This document shows, piece after piece, positions 9,655-19,231 of a DNA stretch of 32,890 nt. Both the position numbers and the translations under genes were made by a program. Positions within the stretch are counted from its first letter, which is position 1. Each line of letters starts with the position of its first letter. The stretch comes from Burkholderiales bacterium (GTDB lineage Bacteria > Pseudomonadota > Gammaproteobacteria > Burkholderiales > Burkholderiaceae_E), in NCBI GenBank assembly GCA_017307915.1, contig JAFKGG010000391.1, positions 1-32,890 on the forward strand, read 5' to 3'. The notes beneath the pieces are model-generated. The model saw only the letters and a program-made list of their open reading frames with translations, searched no databases and was not told where the DNA came from.

Positions 9655-10644
9655 TTAAGAGAGCTTGAGCTTCAGATCCGGAACGATTTTCTTCCAGGCG
9701 GCTATTTGGTCATGGAAACGTCTCTGGAAGTCCTGCTGGGGCATTGGGCGCGCTACAAGGCCATTCTGCTCGTAGTAGGTGCGCATTTCCTGCGACCCCG
9801 CGCCAGCCTGAACTTCGCGATCGATACGATCGATGGCGTTACGCGGCACGCCGGCTGCTGAAAAGAAGCCATGCCAGACGGTGATGTCCACGCCGTTGAT
9901 GCCATGCTCGGTGAACGTCGATACATTCGGCAGTTGCGCCGAGCGCTCAGGCGCGGCCAGGGCCACGATGCGTACGCGGTCCAGAAGCTGCCGGTACAGC
10001 GCGAAGTTGGTGAAGGCCATCTGCACCTGTTCTCCGACCACGGCCTGGAATGCCTGCGCATCGCTCTGGTAGGGCACGTGCGTGATGTCGACGCCGGCAT
10101 TGCGTTTGAACAGCTCACCCAGAATGTGCTGGGTCAATCCTGTTCCCGGTGAACCGAAGTTGTACTTGCCCGGATTCGCCTTGAGCTTGGCCACGAGTTC
10201 CGGCAGCGTGCTCACGCCCAGCGACGGCGATACCGCCAATGCGAACGCCTGCTCGCCGAGAAACGCGACCGGCATCAAGGCCGACTCCGGCCTGAACGGG
10301 AACGCGGGATTGAGCAGCGGGTTGAGCACCAGGGTGGAGAAGCTGCCATAGCCGATCGTATAGCCGTCGGGCGCTGCGCTGGCCACTGCATTCAAACCGA
10401 TCGCACCGCTTGCGCCGACGCGGTTCTCGACGACGAAGGCCTGGCCGAGCCGGTCGCTCAGATGCTGTGCCATCTTGCGCGTGAGAACGTCGCTCAGGCC
10501 GCCGGCACCGAAGGGGCAGATCACCTTCACCGGTTTGACCGGGAATTCCTGCGCGGCAGCGATGCGGGGCAAGCCGACGGCGGTCGCGGCAATGGCGGCT
10601 GAACCACGCAGGGCGAATTGACGACGGGTGAGAGTGCTGGGCAT
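9655..10644 (-). CDS. Bug/TctC-family periplasmic solute-binding receptor (first of three)
   Basis: A 329-residue Bug-family extracytoplasmic receptor. Family members bind small carboxylates or amides in the periplasm, often for TctAB-type transporters. The N-terminus carries a twin-arginine-like motif (TRRQF, residues 6-10), a hydrophobic stretch and an AAAQ cleavage region near residue 32, suggesting Tat or Sec export. Family landmarks include the glycine-rich CPFGAGG loop near 45, GSPGTG mid-protein, THVPYQ, and the LPNV segment. The start is ATG 10644, 23 nt after the upstream SDR stop; the much longer open frame upstream is antisense to that SDR. It is the last gene of the six-gene IclR-linked operon. 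No tctAB partner lies in the window, so it probably shares a transporter encoded elsewhere. Ligand unknown. Confidence 0.9.
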   Translation of the reverse strand: MPSTLTRRQFALRGSAAIAATAVGLPRIAAAQEFPVKPVKVICPFGAGGLSDVLTRKMAQHLSDRLGQAFVVENRVGASGAIGLNAVASAAPDGYTIGYGSFSTLVLNPLLNPAFPFRPESALMPVAFLGEQAFALAVSPSLGVSTLPELVAKLKANPGKYNFGSPGTGLTQHILGELFKRNAGVDITHVPYQSDAQAFQAVVGEQVQMAFTNFALYRQLLDRVRIVALAAPERSAQLPNVSTFTEHGINGVDITVWHGFFSAAGVPRNAIDRIDREVQAGAGSQEMRTYYEQNGLVARPMPQQDFQRRFHDQIAAWKKIVPDLKLKLS

Positions 10645-10667: not shown

Positions 10668-11426
10668 TCAGTTCATGTAGACGCCACCGTTCACGTCGAG
10701 AACGGCACCAGTGACGTTGGAAGCGCCGTCCGAGACCAGGAAGTCGATCGCGCACGCGATGTCGTCGGGCACGCCGAGCCGCCCCACTGGAATGCCGGCG
10801 GCATACGACTTCTGCACGTCCTGGCCTGATTCGCCGGACATTGGCGTTTCGATCCGGCCGGGGGCGATGCAATTGACGGTGACGCCGAATCGGCCGATTT
10901 CTTCTGCGAGCACGCGTGAGAAGCCGAGCACCCCTGCCTTGGATGCGGCATAGGCGGTCGATGGAAAGCGCGAACCGGTGCGCCCCGCTAGCGACGAGAT
11001 GCTGACGATGCGACCCCATTGGCGCTCGCACATCAGCGCCACGCAGGCGCGCGCCATGAGAAAAGGGCCTTCCAGATTGATCCGCATCACCTCATGCCAT
11101 TCGGCCAGCGGCGTCTCGACGGTGAGGTACTTCGCACCCTTGTGCTTGGGCGAGATGCCGGCGTTGTTCACGAGGATCTCGACGCCGCCGAAGGCGGCTT
11201 TGGCGGCGGACACGGCGGCCTCGGCACCGGCCGGCGTGGCGGTATCACCGACGTGGGAGACGGCAGCCAGACCCTGATCCCTCAGCGCCTGTGCGCTCTG
11301 GTGCACTTCTTCCAGACGGTCGGCCAGCAGCACGCGGTGCCCTGCGCTGGCCAGGCGCAAGGCGGTCGCGAAGCCGATGCCGCGCGCGGCGCCGGTGACC
11401 AGAGCGTTTCGCTGGGCAACTGCCAT
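10668..11426 (-). CDS. SDR-family NAD(P)-dependent oxidoreductase (SDR1)
   Basis: A classical short-chain dehydrogenase/reductase of 252 residues, interconverting an alcohol and a ketone on an unknown substrate. Visible: cofactor motif TGAARGIG (11-18), Asp36 after beta-2 favouring NAD(H), NNAG (87-90), catalytic Ser144/145, Tyr159 and Lys163 (YAASK), and a C-terminal VNGG. It resembles SDR2 two genes upstream (shared PGRIxTPM, VGRxGVP and DVNGG blocks), so the two are probably paralogues. It begins 18 nt after the flavoprotein stop and is followed 23 nt later by the Bug receptor. FabG-like ketoacyl-ACP reductases share these motifs, but the catabolic context argues against a lipid role. Confidence 0.9.
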   Translation of the reverse strand: MAVAQRNALVTGAARGIGFATALRLASAGHRVLLADRLEEVHQSAQALRDQGLAAVSHVGDTATPAGAEAAVSAAKAAFGGVEILVNNAGISPKHKGAKYLTVETPLAEWHEVMRINLEGPFLMARACVALMCERQWGRIVSISSLAGRTGSRFPSTAYAASKAGVLGFSRVLAEEIGRFGVTVNCIAPGRIETPMSGESGQDVQKSYAAGIPVGRLGVPDDIACAIDFLVSDGASNVTGAVLDVNGGVYMN

Positions 11427-11444: not shown

Positions 11445-12845
11445 TCAACGTGCCGCACGCGCGGCATTGGCACCCGCAAGACGGCCGAAGATCGCCGCCT
11501 TGGCCAGCGAGCTGCCGCTCAGGTAGGCGGTGCCGTGCAGTCCACCGGTCACTTCTCCTGCGGCGAACAGGCCCGCGATCGCTTGCCCATGCACGTCGAG
11601 CACACGGGTCTGGTCATCGACTGCGATACCGCCGTAGGTCGAGAGCAAGGCGGTCGTACATGGATAGATGTAGAACGGTGCGCGTGCGATCGGCGTGAGT
11701 TCGCCGATCGCGCCGATCAGATGCATGCGTCCGAATTCAGGATCGTGACCTGCCTGAACGAAGCCGTTGTAGCGTGCGACGGTTGCCTCCAGTGCATCCG
11801 GATCGAGGCCAACGGTCTGCGCTAGCTCCGCTATCGTGCCGGCCGTGCGTACCAAGCCCTTCTCGAAGCCCGCGCGGAAGTCGCGCGGCATCATGCCCGG
11901 CACCGAGGCGTCCATGGTGTTCTGGTCGAATACCTGGAAGGCGACGGCGTCGGGCTGTTCCAGGCACAGGCGCCCGGTGATCTTGTAGGAGCCCGACTCG
12001 TCGGCGAAGCGGCGCGCATGCCGGTTCACGGCGATGCCGCCCTTGAAGATCGGATGCATGAGGATGCTGCCGCGACCCGAACGGTCGGCAAGATCAGGGT
12101 AGTGATTCAGCGATGCGCCGAAGGTGCCTGACAGCCAGCCGGTATCGATGAGGTCTGCACCCAATGCCCAGGCCATCAGCAGGCCGTCGCCTTCATTGGC
12201 CATGCCGCCCATGCGCACGGCATTGACGAACTCCGGCGCGAACTTCTCGATCAAGCGATCAGAGCGCGCGAAGCCTCCGGTACAGATGACCACGCCACCG
12301 TTGACGGCCGTGCGAAGCTCGTCGCCGCCGTGTTGATACGCCACGCGGCGCACTCGGCCATCCGTATCGCGCTCCAGGCGCAAGCCTCGCGCATCGGCCA
12401 CGAAGCAGGCCTTGTCGCAGCCAAGCAAGCGATCATGCAAGACCGTGACCACGTGCGCGCCGCTGATCGGGTGGCTGCGCGGAACGCTTTGGTAAGTGCT
12501 GGCCTCGACGCGCTCGAAGCGGAATCCGAGCCCCACCATCCACTCATAGGTGGCGAGTTGCAGCCGCACGTAGGCATCGATGAGATCTTCGCGCGCCTTG
12601 CCGCCGCCGGCATCGATCAGGTCGCGGCGCAGCCGCTCCAGCGAATCGTCGATGCCCAGCTTTTTCTGCAGCGGCGTTGCGGCAAATGCGAAGGAGCCTG
12701 GGCCGCTGGCCGTGCTGCCGCCGAAGTTGTCAGCCTTTTCCAGCAGCAGCACGCTGGCGCCGTTTTCGGCCGCGCTCAGGGCGGCGCAATGCCCGGCGAG
12801 CCCCGCGCCCAGCACGACGACGTCGACGGTTTCAGGAATGCTCAT
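11445..12845 (-). CDS. FAD-dependent oxidoreductase of the FAD_binding_2 (fumarate reductase/ketosteroid dehydrogenase) family
   Basis: A 466-residue flavoprotein. Residues 8-36 form the dinucleotide-binding fold with GAGLAG (13-18) and Glu36 at the end of beta-2. The mid-region NEGDGLLMAWALGA and the C-terminal FAD segment with GEVTGGLHG and YLSGSSL (about 424-450) are hallmarks of the family that includes fumarate reductase flavoproteins, 3-ketosteroid Delta1-dehydrogenase and tricarballylate dehydrogenase. These enzymes introduce or reduce a C=C bond next to a carbonyl or carboxyl group. No haem-binding CXXCH and no signal peptide are seen, so it is a cytosolic single-domain form. It sits between two related SDRs (gaps 12 and 18 nt), suggesting successive redox steps on one substrate. 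Exact reaction unknown. Confidence 0.88.
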   Translation of the reverse strand: MSIPETVDVVVLGAGLAGHCAALSAAENGASVLLLEKADNFGGSTASGPGSFAFAATPLQKKLGIDDSLERLRRDLIDAGGGKAREDLIDAYVRLQLATYEWMVGLGFRFERVEASTYQSVPRSHPISGAHVVTVLHDRLLGCDKACFVADARGLRLERDTDGRVRRVAYQHGGDELRTAVNGGVVICTGGFARSDRLIEKFAPEFVNAVRMGGMANEGDGLLMAWALGADLIDTGWLSGTFGASLNHYPDLADRSGRGSILMHPIFKGGIAVNRHARRFADESGSYKITGRLCLEQPDAVAFQVFDQNTMDASVPGMMPRDFRAGFEKGLVRTAGTIAELAQTVGLDPDALEATVARYNGFVQAGHDPEFGRMHLIGAIGELTPIARAPFYIYPCTTALLSTYGGIAVDDQTRVLDVHGQAIAGLFAAGEVTGGLHGTAYLSGSSLAKAAIFGRLAGANAARAAR

Positions 12846-12857
12846 AGCTGGCGCACC

Positions 12858-13625
12858 TCAGTTCATTGAATAGCCGCCGTTCACGTCGACGGTGGCACCG
12901 GTCATGAAGGCGCTGCCTTCCGAGGTCAGATACATGACGGCAGCCGTGACGTCCGCCGGCACGCCGACGCGGCCGACGGCGGATTTCGCTGAATAAGCCG
13001 CATCGACGTCGGCGCCTGTCTGTACGGTCATCGGCGTGGCGATGCGCCCGGGCGCGACACAGTTGACCGTGATGCCCGAGCTGGCGACCTCATGCGCGAG
13101 GCCGCGCGAAAAGCCGAGCACGGCGCTCTTCGATGCCGCGTAGTGGGCATTGGAGCGCTCGGTGCGCGCTCTCGCGGCCTGCGAAGCAATGTTCACGATG
13201 CGGCCCCAGCGCGCGCGCTGCATGCCCGGAATGCAGGCGCGGCACAGCAGGAATGCGGACGCGACGTTGGTCGTGATGACGCGCCGCCAATCGGATGGGT
13301 CCATGTCGACCACCGCAGTTTTGTGCGCGCCCTTGCGGCCGGTGATGCCGGCGCCGTTGACCAGAATGCCGACGTCGCCCCATGCCTCCTCGATGGCGGC
13401 GATCGTGCGCTGCACGGCGGCCTCGTCCGTCACGTCCAGACAGTGCGCTGCTGCCGTGGTGCCGCGCGCTTGCAGCGTTGCCGCCGACCTTGCCACGTCA
13501 TCGGCACGATCCAGCAGCGCAACCCGGTGCCCCAGCGACGCGAGCGCTGCCGCGATGTCGTATCCCAAACCCTGCGCAGCGCCGGTGACCACCGCAACGC
13601 GCTCGATGCTCTTGTCTGGTGTCAT
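12858..13625 (-). CDS. SDR-family NAD(P)-dependent oxidoreductase (SDR2)
   Basis: A classical SDR of 255 residues with TGAAQGLG (14-21), Asp39 after beta-2 (NAD(H) preference expected), NGAG in place of NNAG (90-93), Ser148, Tyr162 and Lys166 (YAASK), and a C-terminal DVNGG. It is the closer relative of SDR1 within the window and may have arisen by duplication, with the flavoprotein gene now between them. The upstream hydrolase stop is 13 nt away and the flavoprotein start is 12 nt downstream, so it is firmly inside the operon. Substrate unknown; a hydroxyacid or cyclic alcohol is a guess from context only. Confidence 0.9.
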   Translation of the reverse strand: MTPDKSIERVAVVTGAAQGLGYDIAAALASLGHRVALLDRADDVARSAATLQARGTTAAAHCLDVTDEAAVQRTIAAIEEAWGDVGILVNGAGITGRKGAHKTAVVDMDPSDWRRVITTNVASAFLLCRACIPGMQRARWGRIVNIASQAARARTERSNAHYAASKSAVLGFSRGLAHEVASSGITVNCVAPGRIATPMTVQTGADVDAAYSAKSAVGRVGVPADVTAAVMYLTSEGSAFMTGATVDVNGGYSMN

Positions 13626-13638
13626 GTTCGATCGCTCG

Positions 13639-14769
13639 TCATCGGGCCTGTGCGGACATCCAATCGGCCATCGCGGCGGCGGCTTGGGCGACCAGATGTT
13701 CCTGACCCTTGAGGTAGTGATTGCCGCCCTTGAGCTGCAGGTTTTCGACGCGGCCTTCGGCCGCGCGCGACCAGCGTGCGATGGTGCTGGGGAAGACCGA
13801 TCCGTCGGCCGTATGCTCGATCTGCAGCACCGGTACCGTCGTGCGTTGCAGATTGGCGGGGCCGTCGGCGCGGCTCAGCGGCGACCATTGACTGAGCCAT
13901 GAGGTAAGCGTGCAGAAGCGGCCGAGGCAGTTCGGCCCGTAGTTCACGCTGCGCGCGTCGTCGCCCCGGTTGCCGCCGGGCTGCCTGTCGTTGGCATCCA
14001 GGTGCAGGTCGATGTAGCGCGGGTCGGCATAGGTACGATGCACGATGAAGGCTTCGTCGCGTGCGCTGTCGGTCTCGCGCAGCCATGCGAGCCGCGCCTG
14101 CACTCGCGCCGTGATGCGATCCATGCGATTCGCCTGGGCCGTGCGCACGCGCTGGACGAAATCGTCATCGAAGGGTGGGCTGCGGTCTGCCGCGTAAATG
14201 TCGAGCGCAGCAGCGGCCGCGAGCGGATCGCTCTCATCGATGACCGATGCGTCAAGCATGTCGCGCAGCAACTGCGAGCGGCCAAGATGCGCGGCATTGA
14301 GCGCGATGCCGTCGACGGGGGGCAGGTGGGCGGGTTCGATGGACACGGGGTCGCCGGCCGGCGTGTCCGTGATCGTCAGATCTTCTGCTTGCGCCTGGTA
14401 GAAAGCGCACAGCGCCGCGCCGCCCGAATTGCCGATCAGGTAGACGGCTGCATAGCCGCGCTCGCGCAGCATTCGCACGCCCGCGCCGAGATCCTGAATG
14501 ACGCGCTCCATGATGAGCGTGCTGTCGTTGTTCACGTAGCGCGAATTCAGCGCGAGCAGGTCGACGCCGCGGGCCGCCAATGGGTCGACGAGGTAGTGGC
14601 CCATGAAGTTGCTGGCCGGATGCATCACGATGGCGGCGACGCGGTTTCCGGCGGCATGGCCCAACACGCCGTACACGCGCGGCCAGTTCATCTGAAGGCC
14701 GGATTGGCTCTCCAGCGCCGTGCCGGGAGGCACCGGCAGGCTGACGAATTCGCGCGCAGCCGCCTTCAT
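13639..14769 (-). CDS. Alpha/beta-hydrolase fold protein
   Basis: A 376-residue predicted serine hydrolase. The nucleophile elbow GNSGG (113-117) places Ser115 as nucleophile, with likely partners Asp322 (EHTADGSVF) and His351 (GGNHYLKG). An HPAS sequence (50-53) probably forms the oxyanion region. It resembles acyl- or C-C-bond hydrolases more than lipases, but I cannot name the substrate. A long insert (about 125-300) probably makes a lid. Its ATG overlaps the TGA of the upstream VOC gene by 4 nt (14766-14769), a sign of translational coupling and shared function. SDR2 follows after 13 nt. No signal peptide, so cytosolic. Confidence 0.85.
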   Translation of the reverse strand: MKAAAREFVSLPVPPGTALESQSGLQMNWPRVYGVLGHAAGNRVAAIVMHPASNFMGHYLVDPLAARGVDLLALNSRYVNNDSTLIMERVIQDLGAGVRMLRERGYAAVYLIGNSGGAALCAFYQAQAEDLTITDTPAGDPVSIEPAHLPPVDGIALNAAHLGRSQLLRDMLDASVIDESDPLAAAAALDIYAADRSPPFDDDFVQRVRTAQANRMDRITARVQARLAWLRETDSARDEAFIVHRTYADPRYIDLHLDANDRQPGGNRGDDARSVNYGPNCLGRFCTLTSWLSQWSPLSRADGPANLQRTTVPVLQIEHTADGSVFPSTIARWSRAAEGRVENLQLKGGNHYLKGQEHLVAQAAAAMADWMSAQAR

Positions 14770-15323
14770 TTCCGATACTTCCTCAGCACGGAGGCCATCT
14801 GCTCATGCGCCGTCTGTGCGGCATGCTCAAACACCTCGGGCGGCGACTTTTCCCACGCCAGTTCGAGACGGATGCCGTTGGGGTCGAAGAAGTAGATCGA
14901 ATCGAAAGTGCCGTGCTGGCTGGGGCCCAGCACATCCACCCCGGCAGCCTCGAGCCTGGCCTTGGCCTGGTGCAATGCTTCCCGACTGTCGACCTGGAGC
15001 GCGAGGTGATTGACCCATGCCGGCGTGTCCGGGTCGGGCGTGCAACTTCTGCCGTCGAACAGATCGAAGAAGGCGAGGTAGGAACCGTCCCCCATTTCGA
15101 AAAAGATGTGCAGATAAGGCTGGTATTCCCCGGTGCTCGGCACGTGCTCATGGCTGACGACGCAGGCCAGTGGCAATCCGAGCACGTCCTCGTAGAAGCG
15201 CACCGTTTCTTCGGCGTCGCGGCACCGGTATGCGAAGTGGTGCAGACGATGAATGATTGGAAAGCCCGAGTCGATCCGCCGTGCGGCAGGCGCTCTCGGA
15301 CTGAATCTTGAAGGAGTGATCAT
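14766..15323 (-). CDS. VOC-superfamily protein (glyoxalase/extradiol dioxygenase fold)
   Basis: A 185-residue vicinal-oxygen-chelate protein with two beta-alpha-beta3 modules. Module 1 (about 25-90) begins HRLHHFAY and contains FYEDVLGL; module 2 (about 103-158) begins VNHLALQV and ends FFDPNGIRLELAW. Candidate metal ligands are His28 or His29, His106 and Glu154. Such proteins act as ring-cleaving dioxygenases, lyases, isomerases or glyoxalases; the sequence does not decide which. The start is ATG 15323, with GAGG a few nt upstream on the minus strand. It is the first gene of the operon, and the IclR-type operator pair lies directly upstream. It overlaps the hydrolase by 4 nt, so the hydrolase may act on its product. 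Confidence 0.85.
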   Translation of the reverse strand: MITPSRFSPRAPAARRIDSGFPIIHRLHHFAYRCRDAEETVRFYEDVLGLPLACVVSHEHVPSTGEYQPYLHIFFEMGDGSYLAFFDLFDGRSCTPDPDTPAWVNHLALQVDSREALHQAKARLEAAGVDVLGPSQHGTFDSIYFFDPNGIRLELAWEKSPPEVFEHAAQTAHEQMASVLRKYRK

Positions 15324-15333
15324 GTTTGCCTCG

Positions 15334-15350
15334 TATTCATTGTATGAATA
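15334..15350. promoter_or_regulatory. Operator palindrome upstream of the VOC operon (strong site)
   Basis: A perfect 17-bp palindrome, TATTCAT-TGT-ATGAATA, 11 nt upstream of the VOC start codon. The same architecture recurs before the divergent racemase gene. Its position over the presumed 5' leader suggests repression. The neighbouring IclR protein is the likely binder (inference). Confidence 0.7.
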
Positions 15351-15353
15351 AGT

Positions 15354-15370
15354 TATTTTTTGTATGAATA
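15354..15370. promoter_or_regulatory. Second, degenerate operator copy of the VOC operon
   Basis: TATTTTT-TGT-ATGAATA. The right arm and centre, TGTATGAATA, repeat the first site exactly, 20 bp away, about two helical turns. The left arm matches 5 of 7. The spacing puts both copies on one DNA face, as expected for cooperative dimers. Confidence 0.6.
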
Positions 15371-15598
15371 ATCATGGCGCAACGAGTTCTGCGTGTCAAC
15401 GCACATGCCGTGTTCGATGGCGTGCGAACCCGAGCGGGGTCGCGCGACATCAAGCGCGGTATGAGGTGGAAAAGGGGGCGATCACCCGAGCAGGGTGACC
15501 GCAATGTCGGGCGCGAGCGGGGCTGCGCAGTCTCGGCTCTGCGAGCTCTTGGCGAGCGCGCTCGACACCGCGTCGCTGAAGCTGTACGTGAGCCTGCG

Positions 15599-15618
15599 CT
15601 GCCCCTGGTTTGGGGCAG
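15599..15618 (-). terminator. Hairpin downstream of iclR (weak terminator candidate)
   Basis: CTGCCCC (15599-15605) pairs with GGGGCAG (15612-15618) around 6 nt, 33 nt beyond the iclR stop. No T-run follows on the minus strand. The remaining 280 nt between the VOC operators and the iclR stop hold no gene I can support. Confidence 0.35.
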
Positions 15619-15651
15619 GAATGTGTTCGTTCAGCGGGACGAGCTGTGTGC

Positions 15652-16446
15652 TCAGGCGATGGAGAGTGACTGCGCCAGTTCCACCAGTTGCGGGCCAATC
15701 TCCCGATCGAGAAGCTGCGGCGAAAAGCGCGAGCGCGATCCTCCGAAACTCAGGCTCGCTACCGGTGTACCGCCGGGCCCCATGACGGGCACGGAAATCG
15801 CGTTGATCTCGGGATGCAGCACGCCTTTATTGAGGATCCAGCCTTTGGACGGAAAGCGTGCCAGAGCGGCAGTCAGCGGCTTCTGCACGCGTTCGTATTC
15901 CTCGGGCATGCGCTGCCTGGCGGTGCGCAGCAGCGCGGCACGTTCCTTTTCCGGCAGACCTGCGAGAAGACCCCAGCCCATGGCGGATGCCAGCAGCGAT
16001 ACGTGCGATCCGATGCGCAGATCGGAAAAGATGATGGCACCGCCCTCGACGCGGTGGATGTAAACCATCTCAAGTTCCTGCCGTACGCCCAGCGAAACGG
16101 CGCCGGGGTAACGGCGAGCCAGCGCATCCATCCCCGGTTTGGCGAGTTCGGCGAGCGGCCGGCGCGCGATGGCTGCGTGCCCGAGCCTGAGCACGGCCAG
16201 CGCCGGGCGCATGCGATCTTCGTCGGTCCGCTCCAGAAAGCCCAGCTTGATCATCGTATGGCACAAGCGCCAGACCGTCGGTTGCGGCAGCCCCGACGCC
16301 TTGGCGATCTGACTCACGGTCAGCGCCGCCGGCGATTCGCCGCAAAGAAGCAGGATGTTCAAGCCGCGCGCCAGCGCGGTCACGAAAAGCGGGTCTTTTT
16401 CGTCGAGATCGTTGCCGTCTTCCGTTTCGATCTTCTTCCTGATCAT
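15652..16446 (-). CDS. IclR-family transcriptional regulator
   Basis: A 264-residue regulator with an N-terminal winged helix-turn-helix (about 22-80: ALARGLNILLL, LTVSQIAKASGLPQPTVWRLC) and a C-terminal effector-binding domain (about 95-260, ending with the conserved GPQLVELAQSLS region). IclR proteins bind as dimers or tetramers to paired palindromes and respond to small carboxylates or aromatics. The gene lies between the catabolic operon and a divergent racemase-like gene, and both flanking promoters carry matching tandem palindromes. One set is 48 nt upstream of this gene's start, so autoregulation is likely. ATG 16446 is the only start before the conserved domain. Confidence 0.93.
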   Translation of the reverse strand: MIRKKIETEDGNDLDEKDPLFVTALARGLNILLLCGESPAALTVSQIAKASGLPQPTVWRLCHTMIKLGFLERTDEDRMRPALAVLRLGHAAIARRPLAELAKPGMDALARRYPGAVSLGVRQELEMVYIHRVEGGAIIFSDLRIGSHVSLLASAMGWGLLAGLPEKERAALLRTARQRMPEEYERVQKPLTAALARFPSKGWILNKGVLHPEINAISVPVMGPGGTPVASLSFGGSRSRFSPQLLDREIGPQLVELAQSLSIA

Positions 16447-16473
16447 TGCCGATTTCCGTATTGTTTTAAACTT

Positions 16474-16490
16474 AATTCATTATACGGTTT
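16474..16490. promoter_or_regulatory. Degenerate operator half-site in the iclR/racemase intergenic region
   Basis: AATTCAT (6 of 7 to the TATTCAT arm) followed by TAT and a poorly matching right arm. Its centre is exactly 20 bp from that of the better site at 16494-16510, repeating the layout of the VOC promoter. Confidence 0.5.
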
Positions 16491-16493
16491 ATT

Positions 16494-16510
16494 TATTCAT
16501 CAGACGAATA
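16494..16510. promoter_or_regulatory. Operator palindrome between iclR and the racemase-like gene
   Basis: TATTCAT-CAG-ACGAATA is identical in layout to the VOC-operon site, with one arm mismatch. It ends 7 nt before the racemase start codon and touches its AAAGG, so a bound regulator would block expression. It is 48 nt from the iclR start, allowing control in both directions. Confidence 0.65.
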
Positions 16511-16517
16511 AAAGGCC

Positions 16518-17315
16518 ATGAAGATCTTCTACCAATCGATGACGCCGGTCGGCGACCTGGCGGGTTATGCCTCGGCCCTGCAGCAGCATGCCGCGCTGCT
16601 GTGCCCGCAGGCCGAGCTTCGGCTGAACGGCATGCCTGCGGCGCTGTTCGAAGGCAGCAGTCCTACCGAGGTCTACCGTTATCCCTATGCCAAGCACAAG
16701 ATCGCGTCCGCTGTGCTCGACATCGCCCGGCAGGTCGAAAAGGAAGGATACGATGCTTTCGTACTCGGCAGCTTCAGCGAACCCTTTCTGCCCGAGCTGC
16801 GCTCGATCCTGGACATTCCGGTCACCTCCATGGCGGAGAGCAGCGCGCTCGTCGCGTGCTCGCTGGCCGACAAGTTCGCCTTCGTCTCGCTGTCGGCCGT
16901 CAGCGCACGCCGCCTGAAGCCGATCATCGACAAGCATGGCCTGGGCGCGCGGGTGTGCGGCTTTCACGCGCTGCCGCGGCCGGTCAACGAACATGCGCTG
17001 AACGCCGCGTTCGACGATTCGGCGGCTTTGGTGGCCAACTTCACCGAGGCGGCGCGCGTGGCGATCGACGGCGGCGCCGATCTGGTCGTTCCGGCCGAGG
17101 GCGTGCTCACCGAAGTGCTTTTTTTCGCGGGCGTACGCGCGATCGATGGTGCGACGGTGATGGATTGCGTGGGCGCCACCCTGTGCCACACCGAGATGCT
17201 GGTCAATCTTCAGCGGCGCGGCGGGCTCGGCGTCGGTCGCCGATGGGCCTGGTTGAAGCCGCCGGCCGCTCTGCTCGAGCGTATTGACGGCGATCTGGGT
17301 GGGCGTGTCTCCTGA
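16518..17315 (+). CDS. Asp/Glu/hydantoin racemase-fold protein lacking the catalytic cysteines
   Basis: A 265-residue protein with the two-lobed Asp/Glu racemase-superfamily layout: MKIFYQSMTPVG start, then EGYDAFVLGSFSEP (76-89), IPVTSMAESSA (100-110) and GGADLVVPAEGVLTEV (185-200). Typical members carry one Cys at each of the two strand ends, about where Ser85 and Ala193/Glu194 stand here, so ordinary two-Cys racemase chemistry is unlikely. Relatives include hydantoin racemase, maleate isomerase and arylmalonate decarboxylase. The start is ATG 16518; AAAGG is only 2 nt away, so initiation may be weak or controlled. It is transcribed divergently from iclR across shared operators and is probably part of the same catabolic regulon. 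Confidence 0.75.
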   Translation: MKIFYQSMTPVGDLAGYASALQQHAALLCPQAELRLNGMPAALFEGSSPTEVYRYPYAKHKIASAVLDIARQVEKEGYDAFVLGSFSEPFLPELRSILDIPVTSMAESSALVACSLADKFAFVSLSAVSARRLKPIIDKHGLGARVCGFHALPRPVNEHALNAAFDDSAALVANFTEAARVAIDGGADLVVPAEGVLTEVLFFAGVRAIDGATVMDCVGATLCHTEMLVNLQRRGGLGVGRRWAWLKPPAALLERIDGDLGGRVS

Positions 17316-18463: not shown

Positions 18464-18868
18464 CTACCTTTCCAGCCAGTTCTCTACCTTGAGGCCACCG
18501 ATCCGGCCGAATTCGCGCGTGTTGTCCGTCACCAGCGTGAGGCCGAGCGCATAGGCGTGCGCGGCGATCAGCAGATCGTTCATGCCGATAGGCTGGCCAG
18601 CAGCTTCCAATTCAGCGCGGATGCCGCCGTATTCGGCATCAGCCGGAATGTCCAGCGGCAACACCGGGATCGTTTCAAGCAGGCCTTCCACTTTGGCGAG
18701 CAGCTTGGGCGAGCCCTTCTTTGCGCAGCCATAGCGCAACTCTGCCGCGACGATGATGCTGGTGAAGATGTCCTTCGGCCCGACCTGCTCGACTCGCCGT
18801 GCGGCTGACCCGTCCGGGTCGCGGATCAAGTCGCTGAGGATGTTTGTGTCCAGCAGGTAGCCGTTCAA
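18464..18868 (-). CDS. vapC: VapC-type PIN-domain ribonuclease toxin
   Basis: A 134-residue PIN-domain endoribonuclease, toxin of a type II toxin-antitoxin pair. It cleaves RNA when not held by VapB. The acidic active site is complete: Asp7 (YLLDTNILSDL), Glu43 (AAELRYG), Asp98 (MNDLLIAAHA) and Asp115 (TDNTREF). No ATG or GTG fits the N-terminus. TTG 18868 gives the exact family start and overlaps the vapB stop as TTGA (18865-18868), implying translational coupling. The larger frame running through it to 19195 is a shadow of vapB. The full active site suggests a functional toxin. Confidence 0.88.
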   Translation of the reverse strand: MNGYLLDTNILSDLIRDPDGSAARRVEQVGPKDIFTSIIVAAELRYGCAKKGSPKLLAKVEGLLETIPVLPLDIPADAEYGGIRAELEAAGQPIGMNDLLIAAHAYALGLTLVTDNTREFGRIGGLKVENWLER

Positions 18869-19137
18869 AATATGTCCTCCGACCGGGAGGGCGTGTCCTC
18901 GATGGTCGGGAACTGATCTTCTGGCCCGAGCGGCGCTTCCTTCTTCCACTCGGCCAGCAGTTCGACGATGTTCGTGGGCCGGGTGACTGGCTCGATGATG
19001 AGCTTGCTGCCTTCGCGGTGGATCAGCACGCGATCCCCAGGCAGCTCGAACTCCACAGGAATCCGCACCGCCTGGCTGCGGTTGTTGCGAAACAGCTTGG
19101 CCTCCTTGGGCCTGGATGGCGTCAGGTGTACAGGCAT
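18865..19137 (-). CDS. vapB: VapB-type antitoxin (AbrB/SpoVT fold)
   Basis: A 90-residue antitoxin. Its swapped-hairpin AbrB-like DNA-binding domain (about 13-50) carries the typical KLFRNNRSQAVRIP stretch, and LPGDRVLIHREG completes the fold. The acidic C-terminal tail (about 60-90, ending EDIF) would occupy the VapC active site. The first 12 residues extend beyond the usual VapB start, but no later Met precedes the domain, so ATG 19137 is kept. It is the first gene of the pair and probably represses its own promoter through the repeats at 19155-19181. Confidence 0.88.
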   Translation of the reverse strand: MPVHLTPSRPKEAKLFRNNRSQAVRIPVEFELPGDRVLIHREGSKLIIEPVTRPTNIVELLAEWKKEAPLGPEDQFPTIEDTPSRSEDIF

Positions 19138-19154
19138 GGCATGACCCTCTGGTT

Positions 19155-19181
19155 TGTATATGCCAAACTGTATATGTCAAA
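19155..19181. promoter_or_regulatory. Tandem repeats in the vapBC promoter (autoregulatory operator)
   Basis: TGTATATGCCAAA (19155-19167) and TGTATATGTCAAA (19169-19181) are direct repeats with a 14-bp period, 18 nt upstream of vapB. On the minus strand a TTGACA (19195-19190) precedes TATACA by 15 nt, a usable if short-spaced promoter overlapping the repeats. VapBC complexes typically bind such sites. Confidence 0.55.
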
Positions 19182-19231
19182 ATGCGCAGTGTCAATCGGG
19201 TGGGCGGGTGAGACGTCTACGCAACCGTTGC

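Follow-up and report, generated by a model that had tools for sequence, protein, structure and literature searches.

Tandem operator sites and the very probable control of an iclR gene and its neighbours by the encoded regulator in a Burkholderiales bacterium

Gene content of the locus

The window analysed here is a stretch of 32,890 nucleotides from a Burkholderiales bacterium (contig JAFKGG010000391.1, positions 1 to 32,890). It contains an iclR gene flanked by a divergent gene for a racemase family protein on one side and by six genes for a VOC protein, an alpha/beta-hydrolase-like protein, two short-chain dehydrogenases/reductases, a flavin-binding oxidoreductase and a TctC-type receptor on the other (Table 1). 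The six genes follow each other with gaps of at most 23 bp, and the hydrolase-like gene overlaps the VOC gene by 4 bp. The best NCBIfam matches of the FAD_binding_2 oxidoreductase are the flavocytochrome c and tricarballylate dehydrogenase models, both below cut-off. The best solved relative of the VOC protein is 9u42_A, which is named only Glyoxalase (E 2.6e-41), with much weaker matches to catechol dioxygenases. Relatives of the racemase at E<=1e-50 were absent from the 73 other genomes of the family. Elsewhere in the window, an open reading frame on the minus strand (18464-19195) encodes a PIN domain (E 1.9e-19) and is presumably VapC-like; transposase-like residues were seen, by eye only, in an overlapping frame near it.

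Table 1 Features of the locus, with positions in the window
Feature	Position	Strand	Remarks
TctC-type solute-binding receptor	9655..10644	-	start set at ATG 10644-10642
Short-chain dehydrogenase/reductase	10668..11426	-	profile match
FAD_binding_2 oxidoreductase	11445..12845	-	profile match
Short-chain dehydrogenase/reductase	12858..13625	-	profile match
Alpha/beta-hydrolase-like protein	13639..14769	-	no Pfam match; plasmid homologues mostly annotated alpha/beta hydrolase
VOC protein (glyoxalase/extradiol dioxygenase fold), first operon gene	14766..15323	-	profile match
Strong operator palindrome, VOC operon	15334..15350	.	TATTCATTGTATGAATA; centre 19 bp before VOC start codon
Weaker tandem site, VOC operon	15354..15370	.	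outer box ATGAATA intact, inner box TATTTTT degenerate
Sigma-70-like promoter TTGACA-17-CATGAT, VOC operon	15371..15399	-	consensus match only
iclR, 264 aa, HTH_IclR + IclR_C	15652..16446	-	profile matches
Half-site, iclR/racemase region	16474..16490	.	AATTCATTATACGGTTT; AATTCAT good, ACGGTTT poor
Near-perfect palindrome, iclR/racemase region	16494..16510	.	TATTCATCAGACGAATA
Asp/Glu/hydantoin racemase family protein	16518..17315	+	divergent from iclR

The combination of a VOC gene with a Pfam-less hydrolase gene recurs outside the window, on plasmids as well as in several genomes. Among 13 scanned loci with relatives of the hydrolase, two of which (L113 and L125) are one place, a VOC relative accompanied the hydrolase relative in 10 of the 12 distinct places (L094, L069, L113, L116-L120, L123 and L124), as it does in the window (13639-15323); no VOC match was found near the hydrolase relatives of L114 and L115 in the DNA examined. 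The recurring pair is possibly a ring-cleavage module. At C297 and C188, a FAD_binding_3 flavoprotein is encoded between the VOC and hydrolase relatives, the one at C297 also bearing an aromatic-ring hydroxylase C-terminal domain, and in Variovorax an FAD-dependent oxidoreductase is annotated after the two genes. These associations suggest that the operon in the window may serve to break down an aromatic or hydroaromatic compound.

The regulator itself is a member of the IclR family according to both of its domains (N-terminal PF09339, 52.0 bits, cut-off 22; C-terminal PF01614, 76.7 bits, cut-off 24). Its nearest NCBIfam model is PcaR/PcaU/PobR (TIGR02431), with 134.3 bits and thus under the cut-off of 284.75. 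The genome encodes 81 IclR_C stretches, which were merged to 76 gene places by joining the fragments of four genes and dropping one 51-residue fragment. About 76 IclR genes are strikingly many for a 6.1-Mb draft genome, and several of them adjoin TctC receptor genes.

Paired operator sites at two promoters

The initial annotation had described four sites related to TATTCAT-N3-ATGAATA, arranged as two pairs with centres 20 bp apart, one before the VOC operon and one between iclR and the racemase gene. Both the sites and their spacing were borne out. The strong VOC palindrome has no mismatch to this pattern and its tandem partner has two, while the near-perfect palindrome in the iclR/racemase region has one and the half-site next to it retains 6 of 7 positions in its left box and 3 of 7 in its right box (by-eye count). 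Centre-to-centre distance is 20 bp in either pair, and the better-kept box of each weaker site is the outer one. The centre of the weaker VOC site lies 39 bp before the VOC start codon. Seen from the racemase start, the near-perfect palindrome and the half-site are centred 16 and 36 bp upstream, respectively; seen from the iclR start, 56 and 36 bp. The better site is consequently nearest to the regulated start codon at the VOC and racemase genes, as had been proposed, but at iclR this place is taken by the weaker site.

The best promoter match before the VOC gene directly abuts the far operator site, a second, weaker match lies inside the operator, and with both matches the operator either overlaps the -10 box or lies downstream of it. 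A promoter scan of the iclR/racemase region listed none for either gene. The half-site in this region includes TATAAT on the minus strand (16479-16484), a candidate iclR -10 box with no good -35, and this position inside the weak site fits autorepression of iclR.

Occurrence of the pattern across the genome

Within the window, TATTCAT-N3-ATGAATA has three matches at <=3 mismatches versus 0.24 expected, a number reached by none of 100 shuffles. In mononucleotide shuffles of the operator stretches themselves, the observed tandem dyad score was reached in 0 of 20000 cases for 15324-15380 and in 1 of 20000 for 16447-16517, figures that flatter the score, as the dyad consensus was shaped partly by the same window sites. 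We scanned the genome, a 6.1-Mb draft in 521 contigs with a contamination of 4.75%, and found the single palindrome at eight places at <=2 mismatches, three of these in the window, and at 34 places at <=3 mismatches, compared with seven for a reversed control. The single palindrome is therefore not unique in the genome. The three-box pattern, i.e., outer half-site plus palindrome, was found at <=3 mismatches in the window only, with no mismatch at the VOC promoter and two at the iclR/racemase promoter (two additional hits read the VOC operator again in overlapping positions), and the reversed control had none in the 6.1 Mb. Random recurrence, which the initial annotation had named as an objection to a shared operator, thus concerns the single palindrome and not the paired pattern.

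Low-GC promoter stretches could give rise to AT-rich palindromes by chance, and both operator stretches are indeed AT-rich (25% and 31% GC versus 63% for the window), with other near matches to the single palindrome in the genome. Yet shuffles of these very stretches hardly ever reach the observed score, and the paired pattern is confined to the window within this genome and recurs in homologues, so that we regard an origin by chance as extremely unlikely.

We considered and rejected the idea that one spacing holds for every IclR gene in this genome. TTC-N7-GAA occurs at 0.395 per kb in the 76 IclR upstream stretches versus 0.175 in all fetched loci, but it is no genome-wide IclR signature because other gaps rise about as much (4, 10 and 13 about equally, gap 1 nearly so). 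TATTCAT-N3-ATGAATA at <=3 mismatches is present upstream of 5 of the 76 IclR genes, the window locus counted.

Recurrence upstream of homologous regulators

No close orthologue of the window IclR or of the whole locus was found in the family, order, class and phylum genome sets searched. Matches in 74 family genomes (E<=1e-40) were limited to own paralogues and one in G071. Of the broader sets, in which 6 or 7 candidates were scored per genome and weaker relatives may be missed, 399 order genomes (E<=1e-55) returned the own paralogue C254 only, 369 class genomes (E<=1e-42) own paralogues only, and 398 phylum genomes (E<=1e-38) four others with 34-38% identity. A scan of genome contigs contributed three distant IclR loci. 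The resulting set comprised 16 loci with 31-45% identity to the window IclR: paralogues C254 and C174, the three genome contigs, five other genomes and six plasmids. The plasmids are 6 of 15 matches (one of two Variovorax, two of five Azospirillum, one of six Roseibium/Labrenzia, Comamonas and Indioceanicola).

Scanning of the iclR upstream regions of these homologues for TTCRY-N3-RYGAA, scored out of 10, gave a best site of 9 or 10 in nine of the 16 loci, 8 in six and 7 in one. With the window excluded, the highest mean score of a second dyad at any non-zero offset was obtained at +20 bp, i.e., towards iclR (5.69 out of 10, all 16 loci). The same offset was best among the nine loci whose best site scores at least 9 (mean 6.67 versus 3.41 over offsets), while 400 shuffles of their upstream regions, which preserve local composition but not relatedness, reached at most 5.44 at any offset >5 bp. 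Individual +20 scores of these nine (5, 5, 5, 8, 8, 8, 5, 7 and 9) correspond to a clear partner (7 to 9) in five loci and a weak one (5) in four. Seven of the nine unused plasmid matches were added later, with two Labrenzia records left out; they represent four new loci and three Roseibium/Labrenzia records with the same upstream region as L104. Both sites of the first Variovorax record recur in the second (scores 9 and 8). In the three added Azospirillum loci, the best sites reach 9, but the +20 positions score only 4, 3 and 3. The 20-bp partner is therefore common but not universal among homologues, and weakest in Azospirillum. The added Azospirillum loci concern the spread of the tandem and not the window's own sites. 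Conservation at related loci, which the initial annotation had looked for, thus exists as an architecture upstream of homologous iclR genes, not of all of them, and without an orthologue of the whole locus.

The annotated plasmid homologues of the regulator adjoin differing genes. Among the 13 loci with hydrolase relatives (12 distinct places), for which only full scores were listed, no full-score (10/10) dyad was present. As far as this shows, the operator would appear to accompany the regulator and not the enzymes.

Recognition helix and operator flanks

The recognition helix is of the VWRL type in nine and of the SRL type in seven of the 16 homologues. Three IclR places in the genome have a VWRL helix, namely the window, C254 and C174; as only 41 of the 76 places gave a recognisable helix-like pattern, further VWRL cases may be missed. 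Sites for the comparison of flanks were picked by their core score without the flank bases. An A before TTC and a T after GAA (or variants) occur at the best core site of seven of the nine VWRL-type loci, the other two, L100 and L017, having no clear site. Such flanks were found at no listed site of the seven SRL-type homologues (0/7; G085 has no site of at least 8) and in none of three further SRL-type Azospirillum loci (0/3). The second Variovorax record repeats the site of the first. Unseen VWRL regulators were sought in 228 genomes of the family of G953, where none except G953 itself was found, and on plasmids, which yielded no record beyond the 15 already found. Tentatively, and from a correlation among few, related sequences, VWRL-helix IclR proteins might represent a specificity subclass with the outer motif ATTCRY-N3-RYGAAT, often with a +20-bp partner, beyond the four published peripheral subgroups.

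This clade consensus, ATTCRY-N3-RYGAAT, is found at four places in the 6.1 Mb (reversed control, 0): both window promoters, upstream of C254, the nearest IclR paralogue, and at C96:5299. The last is an exact match (C96:5299-5313; L075 4120-4134) upstream of a gene pair for a short-chain dehydrogenase/reductase and an ABC receptor; its partners at +20 and -20 score only 6/10, and it remains a candidate for a third regulon promoter.

The C254 protein is 44% identical to the window IclR and has the same 13-residue helix stretch, LPQPTVWRLCHTM. Its operator is related, with the same core but of the TTCGC type, and the specificity is therefore not fully explained by the helix stretch. Cross-regulation of the window sites by C254 is possible from this likeness. 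Taken further, the sites could be common to two or more IclR paralogues, with C254 competing for them in a cross-regulated network instead of one regulon, and the identical helix stretch, the same-core operator at C254 and the 76 IclR gene places in the genome all point in this direction. However, the RY positions differ (AT or GT in the window, GC at C254) and each palindrome adjoins its own iclR gene, and we consider such sharing improbable. The proposal of one defined regulon in the initial annotation is nevertheless too tidy, because of the likeness of C254 in helix and operator and the fourth exact consensus site at C96. Its local part, a paired operator shared by the two promoters of one IclR locus, is supported, and the regulon may not be exclusive.

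Comparison with known IclR systems

In the parts of the survey by Suvorova and Gelfand 2021 (PMC8222616) drawn on here, tandem IclR sites 18-22 bp apart, mainly 19-21, are given for 94 of 181 orthologous groups, and binding as tetramers is described. Regulogs are mostly small, the regulator acting on its own gene and on one or two operons next to it. The core of IclR group 1 reads YCRY-W3-RYGR (PMC8222616). Like the group 1 tandem type, the window has YCRY and RYGR boxes 3 bp apart, fully matched at both strong sites, a second site at 20 bp at both promoters, and predicted autoregulation plus adjacent operons. The centres of the strong sites are not A/T-only, with one non-W base in the VOC palindrome and two in the near-perfect palindrome. 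They lie 16 and 19 bp before the racemase and VOC start codons, respectively, compared with a commonest published position of -22 (PMC8222616). Four outer-base subgroups are printed in the same source (WTT, GTT, TGT and NGT), and the WAT...ATW of the window falls outside these four, supplementary site lists apart. These outer bases occur at three of the four window sites, the half-site ending in TTT. In all four sites, position 2 is A and position 16 is T instead of WTT...AAW; of the 17 positions, 12 to 14 agree with the WTT-11-AAW subgroup.

PcaU and PobR are activators, and the same IclR and operators could in their manner constitute an activator or dual regulator. The nearest NCBIfam model of the window protein points to PcaR/PcaU/PobR (E 4.5e-39, below the curated cut-off, 134 against 285 bits), and the similarity to PcaU, PobR and PcaR, which is at the family level, includes a palindrome plus a third half-site. 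Sites of PcaU, PobR and HmgR have an additional external half-site, and the boxes of published three-box sites alternate in direction (PMC8222616, in the parts cited). The intact third box in the window differs from the described ones in being the outer half of another palindrome, which is degraded and has a poorly kept inner box. The position of the VOC operator relative to the -10 box is typical of repressors, and we judge activation or dual regulation to be unlikely.

Proposed mechanism and implications

Control of iclR and the adjacent genes by the IclR protein is very probable. We propose that the window IclR is probably a local autoregulated repressor that binds as paired dimers to tandem sites and is released by an effector. 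Each strong palindrome would be occupied by one dimer, and the weaker site, at a distance of two helical turns on the same face of the DNA, by another. The operator pair at the VOC promoter would span approximately the transcription start and leader, just past TTGACA-17-CATGAT, and protein bound there would block RNA polymerase or initiation, whichever promoter match is used. In the iclR/racemase region, the weak site would cover the candidate iclR -10 box and the strong site both the -35 region of iclR and the DNA leading up to the racemase start. Repression would be lifted by an effector, probably a substrate or intermediate of an aromatic or hydroaromatic pathway. We infer binding, repression rather than activation and the effector from sequence features, and cooperativity from the spacing and published precedent. 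TtgV reportedly acts as a tetramer on its operator. Our proposal resembles TtgV in placing two dimers on one operator, the oligomeric state of the window protein being part of the model only.

The window locus clearly exemplifies an arrangement that has been reported before in the IclR family and is in no way exceptional, and the general picture, with paired sites two turns apart in over half of the orthologous groups (PMC8222616, in the parts cited), is unchanged. The A...T flank that seems to track the VWRL helix would be a mild novelty, and this correlation of helix and flank could sharpen the prediction of IclR motifs. A previously uncharacterised catabolic operon gains a predicted switch with exact operator coordinates.
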